64,000 bases of DNA from Parabacteroides goldsteinii DSM 19448 = WAL 12034 (GTDB lineage: Bacteria; Bacteroidota; Bacteroidia; Bacteroidales; Tannerellaceae). Shown here piece after piece: positions 19,633 through 24,937 of the stretch. Numbering within the stretch: the first letter of the stretch is position 1; each line of letters begins with the position of its first letter. The notes beneath the pieces were generated by a model that saw nothing but the letters and a program-made list of their open reading frames with translations, did not search any database and was not told where the DNA came from. The position numbers were made by a program, and so were the translations under genes. Where the stretch lies: positions 1,640,586 through 1,704,585 of the forward strand of contig NZ_KQ033912.1 in the NCBI RefSeq assembly GCF_000969835.1, given 5' to 3'.

Positions 19633-20214
19633 CTATTCATCCTCAAATTCTTTCAATTCCTCCAATCCTTTTTCTATGGTTTCTATAGATTTCTTATCCA
19701 CATATTTATAACATAAATAACCGATGCAAACACCAAACAACACGCCTATCGCATCTACAATCATATGATAAAGGCTACGGTAATGATGATGTATGAAAAA
19801 GATAGAAACTATTACTATCAGAGCGACCAAAGGCCCCACAAACATTCCGCAGCGCTGTATTTTTCTGAACTTTATACACCATGCCATAGCCTCACAGATA
19901 GATAGTTTATTCAAATCCAAACGCTCCAGAAAGCGGAAATAACAAATACAGTAAATAAGAACGCTCCCCCCCAGCAATCCGGAAATAATCATTGCTGCCG
20001 GACGAATAACCACAATATTTTTCATAATCAACACTAAAATAAACATGACGAAAACAAGGACAATACCTCCCCAGTTCATCCATTTTAATCTTGACAGGGC
20101 AGAGTTGGTTCGTGTTACAATCATCTCCTTAATAATCCTTTTATTCAATATCTCATTCTGTGCCAATCGCTCGTTCAGCACATTCCAACCTGCTTTTAAT
20201 TCTTCCAGTTCCAT
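19633..20214 (-). CDS. Membrane protein encoded with an ECF sigma factor (possible anti-sigma factor)
   Basis: 193 residues with a soluble N terminus (MELEELKAGWNVLNERLAQN, helical, about 45 residues) followed by four hydrophobic segments, two (WGGIVLVFVMFILVLIM, IISGLLGGSVLIYCICYF) in the first half and two (FVGPLVALIVIVSIFFI, IGVLFGVCIGYLCYKYV) in the second. The tail is acidic (EELKEFEDE). It lies 12 bp downstream of the sigma gene. This arrangement suggests the N-terminal helices hold the sigma factor at the membrane; that is inference, since it has neither the zinc-binding motif nor the FecR domain of known anti-sigma factors. Confidence 0.75.
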   Translation of the reverse strand: MELEELKAGWNVLNERLAQNEILNKRIIKEMIVTRTNSALSRLKWMNWGGIVLVFVMFILVLIMKNIVVIRPAAMIISGLLGGSVLIYCICYFRFLERLDLNKLSICEAMAWCIKFRKIQRCGMFVGPLVALIVIVSIFFIHHHYRSLYHMIVDAIGVLFGVCIGYLCYKYVDKKSIETIEKGLEELKEFEDE

Positions 20215-20226
20215 ATTCTTTTTAAT

Positions 20227-20715
20227 TTAACTGTTTGACATGATTCTTAGTTTCTCTTTAATACGATTGAGTTTTACTGCCACATTATTACGGGAAAGTC
20301 CGGTAATATCCGCCATCTCCTGATAACTCTTTTCTTCCAGCCAAAGCAGGATCAGTGCACGCTCCAAACGTCCCAGCCGGTTTATCATCCGGTAAAGTTC
20401 ATGAAGCTGGGCTGTTTTATCTTCTTCTTCCACAAAATCTTCCAAGTCGACCGAAATCGGTACCACTTCCGGTTTGGACTTTGATTTGCGGAAAAAAGAA
20501 ATACAAGTATTCAGCCCGATACGATACACCCAGGTGGAAGCCTTACACTCGCCCCGGAAGCGGGGAAATGCTTTCCACAGGTTTATCACGACCTCCTGAT
20601 ATAAATCATTCAGATTTTCCGGATCACTTGCATAGATATAGCATACCTTATATATTACCTGCTTATATTCTTCTACAAGTGCGATAAACTCCTTCTCTTG
20701 TTGCTGTGCTTTCAT
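20227..20715 (-). CDS. ECF-type RNA polymerase sigma factor
   Basis: 162 residues with region 2 (EYKQVIYKVCYIYASDPEN, LYQEVVINLWKAFPRFRG, ASTWVYRIGLNTCISFFR) and region 4 (RLERALILLWLEEKSYQEMADITGLSRNNVAVKLNRIKEKLR), linked by an acidic segment. No signal peptide. First gene of a two-gene operon with the membrane protein at 19633. Divergent from the IclR gene with 183 bp between them. This type is distinct from the SusCD-linked sigma factors, since no FecR or susC follows. Confidence 0.93.
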   Translation of the reverse strand: MKAQQQEKEFIALVEEYKQVIYKVCYIYASDPENLNDLYQEVVINLWKAFPRFRGECKASTWVYRIGLNTCISFFRKSKSKPEVVPISVDLEDFVEEEDKTAQLHELYRMINRLGRLERALILLWLEEKSYQEMADITGLSRNNVAVKLNRIKEKLRIMSNS

Positions 20716-20834: not shown

Positions 20835-20842
20835 TACTTTTG
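20835..20842 (+). promoter_or_regulatory. Candidate -7 box (TACTTTTG) of the IclR gene
   Basis: Fits TAnnTTTG, 57 bases before the iclR-type start codon, and overlaps the first operator palindrome by two bases. No obvious -33 TTTG. Confidence 0.5.
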
Positions 20843-20876
20843 TTTCAAATAAGAAACAAAGTTTCATATCAGAAAC
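20841..20876. promoter_or_regulatory. Two tandem operator-like palindromes upstream of IclR gene
   Basis: TGTTTC-N6-GAAACA (20841-20858) followed two bases later by GTTTC-N6-GAAAC (20861-20876). The spacing is identical in both. IclR-family dimers bind palindromes of this size and KdgR-type members bind sites containing GAAAC/GTTTC. Placement directly on the -7 box suggests autorepression and probably control of the downstream cytochrome gene. Confidence 0.6.
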
Positions 20877-20898: not shown

Positions 20899-21699
20899 AT
20901 GATTACTCAAGAAGAAATACAAGAGAAAAACGCTGCCAAATACAATATTCCAATGCTGGAAAAGAGCTTCGAGCTATTGGAATTTCTGGTTAACTACCCC
21001 AGCGGACTAACCATGCAGGAACTCGTTAATTTACTGGATACTCCCAAAACGACCATATACAGGCTGCTCAGCTCCATGCAAGGCATGGGCTACCTGACAA
21101 AAGATGCCGATACACAACGGTTTTCATTGTCTAAAAGATTTCTGAAACTGGGACTGGCCGCCTTGGGAGAATCAAATATCGTAGAACAATCATTAGCCCC
21201 GATGCGTGCCCTCCGCGATACGATCAAAGAGAGTGTCATGCTAGGTGTCTTTATGGAAAACCGGGTAGTCCTTCTCGAACAGGTTTTAGGGTCACATAAT
21301 TTCACCTTCCTGTTACGTCCCGGAACAAGTTTTTGCCTGCACGCATCGGCGCCGGGCAAAATATTTTTAGCCTATCTATCGGACGAAGAACGCGAAAAGG
21401 CTATGCAAACCATCCAATACACAGTCTTCAACAAACATACGATAGCCAACGAAACACAGATGCGCAAAGAGATCAACCGCATCAGAAAAATGGGGTATGC
21501 ATCCGACCTGGAAGAAGAAATGGCCGGCGTTCATTGCATCGCCACTCCGATATTCAATCAGTTCGGGACCATCGCGGCCACTATTTGGACCTCCGGCCCA
21601 TCCGGCCGGCTGGATAAAGAAAAATTCCCGGAGACATCGAAAGAACTGATCCGGACTGCTCGCATTATCTCCGCTAACATGGGGTATATTCCTGAATAA
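20899..21699 (+). CDS. IclR-family transcriptional regulator
   Basis: 266 residues. The N-terminal winged helix is IPMLEKSFELLEFLV, GLTMQELVNLLDTPKTTIYR then LLSSMQGMGYLTKDADTQRF. The C-terminal effector domain carries the family motifs LHASAPGKIFLAYL and MGYASDLEEEMAGVHCIATP, with IAATIWTSGPSGRL near the end. Family members respond to small carboxylic or aromatic acids or sugar acids. Only 26 bp separate it from the cytochrome gene, which it most likely controls as part of one transcript. An N-terminal extension of about 16 residues precedes the HTH. Confidence 0.94.
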   Translation: MITQEEIQEKNAAKYNIPMLEKSFELLEFLVNYPSGLTMQELVNLLDTPKTTIYRLLSSMQGMGYLTKDADTQRFSLSKRFLKLGLAALGESNIVEQSLAPMRALRDTIKESVMLGVFMENRVVLLEQVLGSHNFTFLLRPGTSFCLHASAPGKIFLAYLSDEEREKAMQTIQYTVFNKHTIANETQMRKEINRIRKMGYASDLEEEMAGVHCIATPIFNQFGTIAATIWTSGPSGRLDKEKFPETSKELIRTARIISANMGYIPE

Positions 21700-21725: not shown

Positions 21726-24089
21726 ATGAAAAGCTACTACAAATTCTTAATTCTTCTGACCTTCCTATTCGGAGGAAGCACATTACTTTCTGCCGAACAA
21801 ATGAATCCCAAAAAGATTACGCTAACATCTCATGCAAAAGAACAATTAGCAGGAAAACAAATATTATATATAGAACGAGAACAATACGCTCCAGACCATC
21901 ACAATACAGCAACCATATTTCAAAAAGGAGAAATTAACGAAAACAGCTTCTGCCCAGGAGGAGCCATGAGAATATATGATATCAATACCGGAAATACAAC
22001 GACACTGATAGAACTGGAAAATGGCGTAATTCGTGATCCTGAATTATCTTTTGACGGTAAAAAGATAATTTTCTCTATGCGGAAAAATAAAGACGATTAC
22101 TATCATATCTACGAAATTAATATAGATGGCTCCGAATTAAAACAACTCACGTTTGCAGAAGGTGTGTCTGATATTGACCCACTGTACCTGCCTGACGGAG
22201 GGATCGTATTCAGCTCTACACGCCAGCCAAAGTATTGCATGTGTAATCGACATATTATGTGTAACCTGTATCGTATGGAAGCAGACGGTGCCAATATCAC
22301 ACAAATCGGTATAAGCACATTGTTTGAAGGGCATTCTACCTTATTGAACGATGGTAGAATCTTATACGACCGTTGGGAATATGTCGACCGTAACTTCGGT
22401 GATGCACAAGGTTTATGGACAGTAAATCCAGATGGAACAAAACATTCCATCTATTATGGTAACAATACCCAATCACCAGGTGGAGTAATCGATGCTCGCC
22501 AAATACCTGGGACCGACCAGGTGATTTGTATCTTCGGATCATGCCACGACCGCCCTTGGGGAGCACTCGCCATTATTGACAGAAAAAAAGGAGTAGACGG
22601 CATTGAACCTGTTATACAAATATGGCCGGAAAATAGCAGAAATTTGATCGGCAAAGGAAATTTGGATTCATTCAAATGGATTGATTACTTCTTTGAAGAT
22701 CCTTTCCCCGTAAATGAAAATTTCTTTCTTGCATCACGAACAATTTGGACAAAAACCCATAAACAAGCCCCCATAGATTCTAAATCAGGCATTTATCTAA
22801 TCGGGCGAGACAGTACACAAGAATTACTTATAGAAGGAAGCCGAAGCCTTTTCGATCCAATGATTATCCAAGCACGCCCCAAACCTCATACTATACCTAC
22901 AAATAGAAACTACACAGACAAAAAAGGAACTTTTTACGTGCAAAACGTATATCACGGTACACACATGAATGGGGTAGAGCCTGGAACCGTCAAATACTTG
23001 CGTGTTATCGAATCACCAGAAAAAAAAACATGGACAAAAGATGCCTGGTATGGCCAAGGAGAGCAAGCTCCGGCTGTTAACTGGCATAGTTTTGAAATCA
23101 AACGAATCCTGGGAGAAGTTCCGGTGGAAGAAGATGGATCCGCCAATTTTGAAGTACCATCCGGCACATACGTTTATTTTCAGCTGCTTGACAAAAACAA
23201 AAAAATGATTCAGTCCATGCGTAGCGGTACAATGGTGATGCCAGGAGAAACAAACGGTTGTATTGGCTGCCATGAAGATCGTTTAAGCACACCCAGCTCT
23301 ATGGGAGCAAAACCATTGGCACTGAAAAAAAGCCCTGTCAAACTGAACGGCTGGATGGGAAAGGCTGCCAAAAGCTTCTCTTTTATGGAGCAAATTCAAC
23401 CCATATTAGATAAAAATTGTGTACGTTGTCATGACTTCGACCTCAAAAATCGCGAGAAATTGGTATTAGCGAAAGATAAAAATCCATTTTTTAATGCAGC
23501 CTATGTCAATCTATATGTAAAAAAGAAAGTTACCCTTATTGGCGGAGGGCCAGCACAGATACAAAAACCTTACTCTTGGGGATCTCATGCAAGTAAGCTT
23601 ACTAAAATTATCGATGAAAACCATCACAATATCAAATTATCGGTTAAAGAAAAAGAGACATTTTACACTTGGATGGACCTAAACGGGGTTTATTATCCGG
23701 TATACGAATCTGCATTCGATTCAACTCTTGCCGGACGAAGTCCATTGTACGATCACGAAATACGGGAATTAACAGCTTTGACGGGTATAAACATTTGGTT
23801 ACTCGACTGTTTTTGGAGAGAATTACCTGCACAAATATCTTTCGACCGCCCGGAAGTCAGTCCATGCCTAGACAAAATCAGAAACGACAAGCAGAAATAT
23901 GCCCGTGCCGTCGAAATCATCCGCACCGGACAAAAGCGGCTGAAAGCTACTCCACGCGGAGATATTGAAAAAGACCTCGTTCCCTGCGAACGGCATAAAG
24001 CACAGCTACGGAAATATGCGGAACGTCTAAAGGTCGAACAGCAAAACTGTTCGGTCATCGGACAAGGTAATAAGATTTACGACAAGTAA
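21726..24089 (+). CDS. Beta-propeller di-heme cytochrome, hydrazine-synthase-alpha-like (HzsA-related)
   Basis: About 787 residues, exported (signal peptide KFLILLTFLFGGSTLLSAEQ). The first half is a PD40/TolB-like propeller: blades DPELSFDGKKIIFSMRK, DIDPLYLPDGGIVFSSTR, GHSTLLNDGRILYDRWEY. A Cys cluster C171-x-C173-x5-C179 sits within it. Two canonical haem c sites follow: CIGCH at 512-516 and CVRCH at 565-569. A helical tail follows. The layout (propeller, middle domain, C-terminal haems) and length match the group annotated as related to anammox hydrazine synthase alpha; that enzyme's special Tyr-ligated haem (recalled) is not obvious here, so hydrazine synthesis is not implied. Likely a periplasmic electron-transfer or redox enzyme. 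ATG at 21717 is an alternative start. Body is more AT-rich than its last 250 bases and the IclR gene. Confidence 0.8.
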   Translation: MKSYYKFLILLTFLFGGSTLLSAEQMNPKKITLTSHAKEQLAGKQILYIEREQYAPDHHNTATIFQKGEINENSFCPGGAMRIYDINTGNTTTLIELENGVIRDPELSFDGKKIIFSMRKNKDDYYHIYEINIDGSELKQLTFAEGVSDIDPLYLPDGGIVFSSTRQPKYCMCNRHIMCNLYRMEADGANITQIGISTLFEGHSTLLNDGRILYDRWEYVDRNFGDAQGLWTVNPDGTKHSIYYGNNTQSPGGVIDARQIPGTDQVICIFGSCHDRPWGALAIIDRKKGVDGIEPVIQIWPENSRNLIGKGNLDSFKWIDYFFEDPFPVNENFFLASRTIWTKTHKQAPIDSKSGIYLIGRDSTQELLIEGSRSLFDPMIIQARPKPHTIPTNRNYTDKKGTFYVQNVYHGTHMNGVEPGTVKYLRVIESPEKKTWTKDAWYGQGEQAPAVNWHSFEIKRILGEVPVEEDGSANFEVPSGTYVYFQLLDKNKKMIQSMRSGTMVMPGETNGCIGCHEDRLSTPSSMGAKPLALKKSPVKLNGWMGKAAKSFSFMEQIQPILDKNCVRCHDFDLKNREKLVLAKDKNPFFNAAYVNLYVKKKVTLIGGGPAQIQKPYSWGSHASKLTKIIDENHHNIKLSVKEKETFYTWMDLNGVYYPVYESAFDSTLAGRSPLYDHEIRELTALTGINIWLLDCFWRELPAQISFDRPEVSPCLDKIRNDKQKYARAVEIIRTGQKRLKATPRGDIEKDLVPCERHKAQLRKYAERLKVEQQNCSVIGQGNKIYDK

Positions 24090-24251
24090 TATAAAGGCGA
24101 TATACTTCCGCTGAAGGAACTCTTGTCTCCTCATTTCCTTCGTGCAGGCGACAATGGTGCCATCATCTCGGAATTTGGAACATACCAGGATGGGAACGGA
24201 TTAAAATTCACCAATCAAAAGGCTGTGTTCACAGACGTGCTACGTCCTTAA
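24090..24251 (+). other. In-frame open extension after the cytochrome gene's TAA stop
   Basis: Immediately after the TAA the same frame stays open for 53 codons to a second TAA at 24249, reading YKGDILPLKELLSPHFLR, AGDNGAIISEFGTYQDGN, GLKFTNQKAVFTDVLRP. It is protein-like but has no own start codon and no family I recognise. It may be a C-terminal part cut off by a nonsense change, a fragment of another gene fused by recombination, or (less likely) a readthrough product. Confidence 0.5.
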
Positions 24252-24293: not shown

Positions 24294-24887
24294 CTACCGG
24301 TTATTCTTGATCAGGTTCATAAATTCCTCACGCGTCTTAGCCTGCTGGAAGAAACCTGTAAAGTCGGAAGTTGTCGTCAGGGAATTCTGTTTCTCCACAC
24401 CGCGCATCTGCATGCACATGTGCTGTGCTTCGATCACCACCATGACACCCAGAGGGTCCAACGTTTGCTGGATGCAGTCCTTGATCTGCATAGTCAGGCG
24501 TTCCTGGATTTGCAGGCGGCGGGCAAAGATATCCACTACCCGGGGAATCTTGCTCAGCCCCGTAATATATTTCTTGGGAATATAAGCGACATGGGCCTTT
24601 CCGAAGAACGGAAGCATATGATGTTCACACAGCGAAAAGAAATCAATATCTTTTACAATAACCATCTGCTTGTAGTCCTCTTCCTGAAACATAGCGGAAG
24701 CAAGTACCTTTGCAGGATCTTCGTTGTATCCTTTGGTTAAAAACTGCATAGCTTTTGCTACACGTTCCGGCGTTTTGATCAGACCTTCACGTTCGGCATC
24801 TTCGCCCAGCAGGCCTAATATTTGTTTGTAATGGCCGGCCAGTTCTTCGCGTGCCGCCAAGGTCTTGTCGTCTATTTCTTTTGTCAT
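24294..24887 (-). CDS. folE: GTP cyclohydrolase I (FolE)
   Basis: Converts GTP to dihydroneopterin triphosphate, the first step of folate synthesis. 197 residues from the start at 24887 ([10 protein letters not shown]); the frame is open to 24920 but the extra 11 residues look non-coding. Zinc ligands and active-site motifs are present: [40 protein letters not shown] and [11 protein letters not shown]. Full length for the family. Last gene of the run DUF1599 / DoxX / tpiA / SPOR / folE, an order shared by Bacteroidales. Confidence 0.97.
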
Positions 24888-24937
24888 TTCTATAATTATC
24901 CGTGTCAGCCACGGGGACAAGTTTCTTATTTTCTTAG

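Follow-up and report, generated by a model that had tools for sequence, protein, structure and literature searches.

What might a gut bacterium do with a relative of hydrazine synthase (HZS), the key enzyme of the bacteria that perform anaerobic ammonium oxidation (anammox)? The question is raised by a 64-kb stretch of DNA from Parabacteroides goldsteinii DSM 19448 = WAL 12034 (NZ_KQ033912.1, positions 1,640,586 to 1,704,585; hereafter the window), in which an hzsA-like gene (21726..24089, +) encodes a predicted exported c-type di-haem protein of 787 amino acids. The answer favoured here, with trust and doubt about evenly balanced, is that the protein, instead of making hydrazine, works in the periplasm as the alpha component of an alpha-betagamma haem oxidoreductase whose substrate derives from a sugar. 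An earlier note, made from the letters of the window, had likened the protein to HZS-alpha, linked it to an IclR regulator and a sugar-type context, and suspected that it is truncated at its stop codon; the likeness, the linkage and the context stood, the truncation did not.

Relatives were compared across 80 hzsA loci (the best 80 of 312), with neighbours counted within 7 kb and identified by Pfam, NCBIfam and PDB searches of representatives. Residues were compared in a MAFFT alignment of 43 family members (the window protein and those of 42 of the 80 loci) with 12 anammox proteins (L140-L151), taken from the 27 Planctomycetota genomes with a match; HZS numbering was set by taking the Tyr of CH-x-GSY as 591.

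Domain architecture and predicted fold

The open frame (21717/21726-24089, +) encodes 790/787 amino acids, the start at 21726 agreeing with that of relatives. Its hydrophobic N terminus looks by eye like a Sec-type signal peptide (21726..21800, +), and homologues look similar. There follows a beta-propeller domain (about residues 42-384; 21849..22877, +), whose homology to TolB/HZS-type propellers is clear: TIGR02800 matches at 2.7e-09, and TolB-type propellers align with residues 27-384 of the predicted model. PD40, the name under which the propeller had first been recorded, is by itself weak (E 0.0092, 16.4 bits, below the cut-off of 20.9). Membership of the HZS_alpha family rests on the middle domain (residues 420-517; 22983..23276, +), which PF18582 scores at 130.8 bits against a gathering cut-off of 26.6. 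Two CxxCH sites, already listed in the earlier note, are both present in 43/43 family members: C512-H516 (23259..23273, +), the equivalent of haem alphaI, which aligns with HZS C583-H587, and C565-H569 (23418..23432, +), the equivalent of haem alphaII.

Judging from these sites, two c-type haems would be attached to the protein, and the presence of CcsBA (c-type cytochrome assembly; ResB and Cytochrom_C_asm domains) in a related P. goldsteinii operon (L127) supports haem attachment. In a structure search, the predicted model shares the HZS-alpha fold (PDB 5c2v), and the likeness to HZS-alpha in architecture, fold and length is supported.

Relation to hydrazine synthase

Fold, two haem sites, a His587 kept in 43/43 family members and a distant betagamma partner in relatives are what one would also expect of a true HZS alpha subunit, that is, of a gut bacterium making hydrazine; this is barely credible. 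The protein scores 58.6 bits on the anammox HzsA equivalog NF052339, whose cut-off is 800, and six related proteins score 44-64 bits; in 27 of 392 Planctomycetota genomes the cut-off is exceeded. Moreover, Tyr591 occurs in 0/43 members, neighbours are of sugar type, and in a tree of 58 rows (quick search, SH-aLRT supports, rooted on the anammox proteins) long branches, 3.55 on each side of the root, set anammox HzsA apart. The supports are 100 for the anammox proteins, 95 for the paralogues and 94 for the window family, and the window protein lies inside a Parabacteroides clade (support 99). On the cut-off of NF052339 and the loss of Tyr591, a true hydrazine synthase is rejected.

Compared with HzsA of Candidatus Kuenenia stuttgartiensis (5c2v), to which it is 22% identical, the window protein has a helical C-terminal part that runs to residue 787, past the aligned 42-748; its family is without Tyr591, has Asn in the Cys303 column and possesses an invariant set of its own (H58/H59/C171/C173/H176/C273/H274), and relatives of its gene have sugar-type neighbours.

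HzsA-like proteins outside anammox bacteria have been published for Planctomycetota, Desulfobacterota and KSB1 (available parts of PMC12758564 and PMC10732223). The available text of PMC12758564 describes distant HZS alpha and betagamma homologues without key residues, those of alpha coming for the most part from Planctomycetota and Desulfobacterota, and mentions that Bacteroidota have betagamma-like homologues; that of PMC10732223 suggests a broader HZS-like family with other substrates. As in those passages of the two papers, an alpha-like gene here goes with a fused betagamma-like partner, Tyr591 is missing and alternative substrates are suspected. The neighbours differ, being FG-GAP or ABC-transporter genes or neither in the available part of PMC12758564, and IclR, isomerase, kinase, aldolase and SusCD here; that part does not treat gut Bacteroidales alpha homologues. 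The statement that no such chemistry is known for gut Bacteroidales holds as far as the literature was searched, and has to be qualified by the HzsA-like proteins published outside anammox bacteria. Among titles and abstract beginnings, with subscription papers partly covered, no publication was found on the Cys/His set or the deletion scar described below, or on operons of this kind in gut Bacteroidales. UniProt includes the window protein, by precomputed domains (Pfam PF26549 + PF18582), under 'HzsA-related protein', a name that gives no function.

Annotators should be warned that HZS-like genes may be called hydrazine synthase. In its available part, a ruminant gut study reports an enrichment of K20934 'hydrazine synthase subunit', for which it proposes Clostridium as a potential host, and regards Bacteroides as a potential reservoir of anammox gene clusters (PMC12784710); HZS-like genes of the present type could be one source of these K20934 calls.

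The Cys/His set and the haem ligands

The propeller carries three invariant or nearly invariant groups of residues. H58-H59 (21897..21902, +) is found in 43/43 family members and is not His in 12/12 anammox HzsA; in the C171-x-C173-x2-H176 motif (22236..22253, +), C171 and H176 are kept in 43/43 and C173 in 42/43; C273-H274 (22542..22547, +) is kept in 43/43 and falls in a gap in 12/12 anammox HzsA. The same residue as H58, H59, C171, H176, C273 or H274 occurs in 0/12 anammox proteins; the C173 column is Cys in 4/12 of them, and the C171 and H176 columns are never Cys or His there. Nor does the C-x-C-x2-H motif occur in any of 11 HZS-alpha paralogues. In the alignment, the invariant set is the family's own. 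The C-x-C-x5-C cluster noticed earlier does exist as C171, C173 and C179; the conserved set is a different one, C179 being Cys in just 14/43 members. In the DSSP string of the model, C171-H176 and C273-H274 each lie between two successive strands; they may sit on one face of the propeller, and the Cys/His set may hold a metal there.

In HZS, haem alphaI is bound by Tyr591 and His587 sits on a zinc ion (available parts of PMC12758564 and PMC12607021). Directly after haem site 1, the window protein has EDRL where HZS has xGSY, and Tyr591, present in 12/12 anammox proteins, is found in 0/43 family members (L 19, R 14, V 4, N 3, I 2, H 1); the histidine of haem site 1 may by now serve as a normal ligand of its haem. 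The column of the zinc ligand Cys303 is Asn in 43/43 members and Cys in 5/12 anammox proteins, and is hence weakly diagnostic. That of His772 is His in 16/43, but the residue next to it, H633, is His in 42/43, and the second haem of this family could accordingly have two His ligands.

The loss of Tyr591, the unusual ligand of the active HZS haem, would also suit a non-catalytic di-haem electron carrier or a ligand sensor, such as a periplasmic adaptor that passes electrons to or from dehydrogenases or signals to the IclR regulon. Orphan hzsA copies that survive without neighbouring pathway genes agree with such a role, as does IclR, which is found within 7 kb in 9/80 loci and directly upstream in 8. 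Still, an active site is favoured by a dense invariant set of Cys, His, Trp, Glu and Tyr in the propeller and by the fact that the protein is paired with a betagamma homologue; the carrier or sensor is rather unlikely.

The putative betagamma partner

The oxidoreductase favoured here calls for a partner, and relatives offer a candidate in the form of a fused betagamma homologue, which matches 5c2v_C (5.9e-21) and 5c2v_B (1.9e-15) over separate halves and NF052342 at 8.2e-32 (110 bits, far under the cut-off of 1250). It lies at most 7 kb from hzsA in 18/80 loci and directly downstream in 14/80; if the 20 loci whose downstream sequence is shorter than 2 kb are set aside, the count is 13/60. At the level of genomes, 16 were considered for window-type hzsA, and a betagamma homologue is found in all 15 that were searched (those other than the genome of L001). 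Among 295 Bacteroidales genomes, HZS_alpha occurs in 21 (and in 0/14 control genomes) and betagamma in 21, 20 of which are shared among the matches listed, betagamma being counted only if the match reaches the gamma region (profile about 409-588, read by eye). The whole of NF052342 was rejected as a marker, as propeller-only matches turn up in 85/295 genomes and in 3/14 controls (E. coli, B. subtilis, Methanosarcina); its cut-off is passed by 0/295 Bacteroidales genomes.

Sugar-type gene neighbours and the proposed reaction

In part of the relatives, the neighbours of hzsA point to sugar use. A DERA gene and an FGGY kinase gene occur together in 5/80 loci that span Bacteroidota and Planctomycetota, an iron alcohol dehydrogenase lies within 7 kb in 6/80, and an isomerase in 3/80 by clustering, with a fourth (L037) by the tail search described below; of the 19 loci of the large HZS-alpha type (L104-L122), 18 also adjoin an isomerase-like gene, and the other, L116, begins at a contig end. 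In Parabacteroides faecis (L001) the operon reads IclR - hzsA - SDR - DERA - FGGY kinase - isomerase, the latter being the last gene; L153, from a further genome of the genus, runs SusC - SusD - IclR - iron alcohol dehydrogenase - hzsA - GH2 - DERA (DeoC) - FGGY. P. goldsteinii also carries (i) the L127 operon, IclR - betagamma - chorismatase-like - isomerase - 1334-amino-acid alpha - CcsBA - small protein - DhaK - DhaL - LsrF-type aldolase, whose P. gordonii copy scores 470.6 bits on the LsrF model (cut-off 297), and (ii) the L128 region, in which alpha - betagamma is found with DERA, zinc alcohol dehydrogenase, FGGY and DUF6905 proteins. The absence of Tyr591 and the sugar-use operons of several relatives make redox chemistry on a sugar-derived compound likely.

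The alpha-betagamma protein would oxidise or reduce a sugar-derived substrate ahead of the isomerase, kinase and aldolase, its alpha haems exchanging electrons with the MauG/peroxidase-like betagamma partner. What it makes would then be isomerised, taken up, phosphorylated by the FGGY or DhaKL kinase and split by the DERA or LsrF-type aldolase.

The same neighbourhood leaves some room for a non-sugar substrate released by glycoside breakdown (an aglycone, a dicarbonyl, a small N or S compound), with the sugar genes serving the sugar half; the GH2 hydrolase and SusCD beside hzsA in L153, the chorismatase-like gene in the L127 betagamma operon (TIGR04444, 90.9 bits, cut-off 325) and the FGE-like domain that one large paralogue carries as a fusion (L012) are compatible with it. 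Such a substrate is unlikely, for the enzymes that recur in linkage are mostly of the sugar isomerase, kinase, aldolase and dehydrogenase types.

The tail behind the stop codon

Behind the TAA of hzsA, 53 sense codons continue in frame (24090-24251), with no ATG among them. The tail had been correctly spotted; that the TAA truncates the protein is contradicted by the very alignment which had been proposed as a check. Of 17 homologues picked from 120 listed of 4772 matches, 16 have C termini that differ in position by no more than 7 residues from that of the window protein, one (P0094) is shorter, and none has the tail; lengths range from 617 to 815 amino acids among the 120 listed, and the window protein with its tail would have 841. 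Both truncation and stop read-through are rejected, since the TAA coincides with the end of the aligned homologues and what follows it is part of another gene.

Searched against the 80 related loci, the tail matches L001 of P. faecis (L001:16194-16346) in 51/51 residues (E about 1e-30), and it is best described as a deletion scar (24090..24251, +) that holds the last 51 codons and stop of a D-lyxose/mannose-isomerase-like lipoprotein gene. At the nucleotide level 130/156 positions are identical; 25/52 codons differ, all synonymously, hence the stretch was probably coding until recently. The source gene encodes a protein of 233 amino acids with, by eye, a lipoprotein-type N terminus, which matches the D-lyxose/D-mannose isomerase 7nzo at E 1.8e-20; the tail is thus the C terminus of a gene related to this family (7nzo, 2y0o), and no full-length cupin isomerase is found in the window, where the last 51 codons alone remain.

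The genes to the right of the L001 isomerase are the same as those in the window. The nearest (24294..24920, -) resembles GTP cyclohydrolase I and is presumably folE; the same gene flanks the P. faecis operon, the proteins being alike by eye. By blastn, the tail match continues into the folE-like gene in L001, and the end of this gene is matched in L002 and L004. Most likely, a deletion took SDR, DERA, the kinase and all but the 3' end of the isomerase gene in the window lineage; this is the simplest reading. A gain in L001 alone would not account for the stub. The deletion would leave IclR, hzsA and the 51-codon stub, and any betagamma partner would have to be encoded elsewhere in the genome. 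L152, which comes from another genome of the genus, has IclR-hzsA immediately ahead of these neighbours and, by the tail search, no stub; in L002 (P. goldsteinii) and L004 (P. gordonii), hzsA is located at the same neighbours with no IclR gene called upstream. From these arrangements, genes around a kept hzsA may have been lost more than once. More generally, an in-frame stretch behind a stop can mimic a truncated C terminus.

Selection and distribution

Is the window gene then a decaying leftover of the deleted operon? A scar that adjoins hzsA and an IclR gene that is its sole partner gene in 64 kb would fit, and yet the frame is full-length and intact with the invariant residues kept, the identical top cluster of the window protein has 201 member sequences, and the comparison with P. 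faecis hzsA gives pN 0.081 against pS 0.80, a synonymous saturation at which no dN/dS ratio is given. Between the orphan copies of L002 and L004, dN is 0.027 and dS 0.835 (omega 0.03), and hzsA is under purifying selection. Decay is therefore very improbable.

P. goldsteinii (G001) has 8 HZS_alpha matches. In the genus of G002, 29/38 genomes have a match at E <= 0.001, three of them marginal (G021, G035, G043: E 5e-5 to 4e-4, frames of about 320 amino acids), and an orthologue at least 67% identical occurs in 7/38.

The IclR regulator and its putative operators

Just upstream of hzsA lies the gene of an IclR-family regulator of 266 amino acids (20899..21699, +; IclR_C PF01614 2.2e-40, HTH_IclR PF09339 2.6e-11), which is 92% identical to that of the P. 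faecis operon and stays under the NCBIfam equivalog cut-offs of BhcR (177.7 vs 350 bits) and KdgR (149 vs 275). The twin operator-like palindromes reported before it are both exact copies of GTTTC-N6-GAAAC (20842..20857 and 20861..20876), begin at distances of 57 and 38 bp from the start of IclR and are the only exact copies in the window; when the 200 bp in front of IclR were shuffled 500 times with dinucleotides preserved, no exact copy arose. Together they form an inner GAAAC-N3-GTTTC (20853-20865), which may resemble the KdgR box; the regulator itself scores below the KdgR cut-off.

With at most one mismatch, the motif is found near the IclR start in 11/18 units including the window, a count in which IclR starts were set by alignment and no shuffles were made. 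These units comprise hzsA units (window, L001, L005, L009, L024, L152, L153) and betagamma units (L138, exact; L127, L134 and L155, three units that are near-copies of one another); in L153 some 115 bp separate the site from the start of IclR. In shuffle controls of 13 units, an equal site appeared in 0/500 for three exact units and in 2-6/500 for four one-mismatch units. These sites suggest that, in some Bacteroidales, related IclR proteins would control window-type hzsA and betagamma in common. The IclR linkage and sugar-type context of the earlier note agree with the gene neighbours of relatives.

A divergent pair upstream of IclR (19633-20715, -) resembles by eye an extracytoplasmic function (ECF) sigma factor and its membrane partner. 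A similar sigma-like pair precedes hzsA in L002, L004 and L152, with L003 in the same cluster; it was not called in L001.

Weighing the favoured reading

A number of observations speak against a sugar-directed alpha-betagamma oxidoreductase. The predicted model contains no haem, and its Foldseek TM-scores to 5c2v are only 0.55-0.58. No betagamma lies within 7 kb in 62/80 loci, nor is there a betagamma gene in the window, and among the matches listed G063 has betagamma without HZS_alpha and G071 the reverse. The DERA/FGGY pair is missing from 75/80 loci, and as loci were chosen by HZS matches, neighbour counts are without an unlinked control. The operator motif has at least two mismatches in 7/18 units (L014, L015, L016, L042, L048, L135, L139). 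Finally, orphan hzsA without an adjacent pathway persists in P. goldsteinii and P. gordonii, so that the linked genes are not strictly needed.

A wider proposal can be put forward only tentatively, namely that gut Bacteroidales and PVC (Planctomycetes-Verrucomicrobia-Chlamydiae) bacteria share a periplasmic alpha-betagamma haem machine which, via a metal site of the propeller Cys/His set that is absent from anammox HzsA, would perform a new redox step on glycan-derived sugars, anammox HZS being an offshoot of this sugar-redox family. In any case, that alpha and betagamma relatives occur together in gut Bacteroidales, partly with isomerase, kinase, aldolase and SusCD, provides a concrete hypothesis for the other chemistry of the HZS family, and one testable in cultivable bacteria.

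Other members of the related loci

A betagamma gene with a D-lyxose-isomerase-like lipoprotein gene recurs as a set in gut Bacteroidales (L127, 554-13701; L134, L135, L136, L138, L139, L155), in most cases with an HZS-alpha of about 1335 amino acids and often with IclR, chorismatase-like, CcsBA, DhaK, DhaL and LsrF-type aldolase genes, which amounts to a full set of HZS-like genes joined to a module of kinase and aldolase. Behind the haem part, the HZS-alpha of 1088 amino acids in L012 (6648-9914) has an FGE-sulfatase (SUMF1-like) domain by Pfam, and PvdO/EgtB-like NCBIfam models match at the same place in that of 1334 amino acids in L127 (5151-9155). In P. goldsteinii (G001), 2 of the 8 HZS_alpha genes (L131, L133) adjoin Pfam-confirmed SusC/SusD pairs; HZS_alpha cytochromes may be recurrent members of glycan-use loci.

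A hydrophobic protein of 257-344 amino acids accompanies hzsA/DERA/FGGY in 4/80 loci (L027:19018-20025, L007:4656-5429, L035:7268-8302, L063:3877-4908); it is probably a permease, with no Pfam match for L027 and no NCBIfam match for L027 and L007. Lastly, an exported-looking protein of about 300 amino acids, with a Mala_s_1-like domain in L008 (14183-15076), lies near alpha/betagamma genes, its cluster occurring in 4/80 loci and in L128, L129, L134, L135 and L155.

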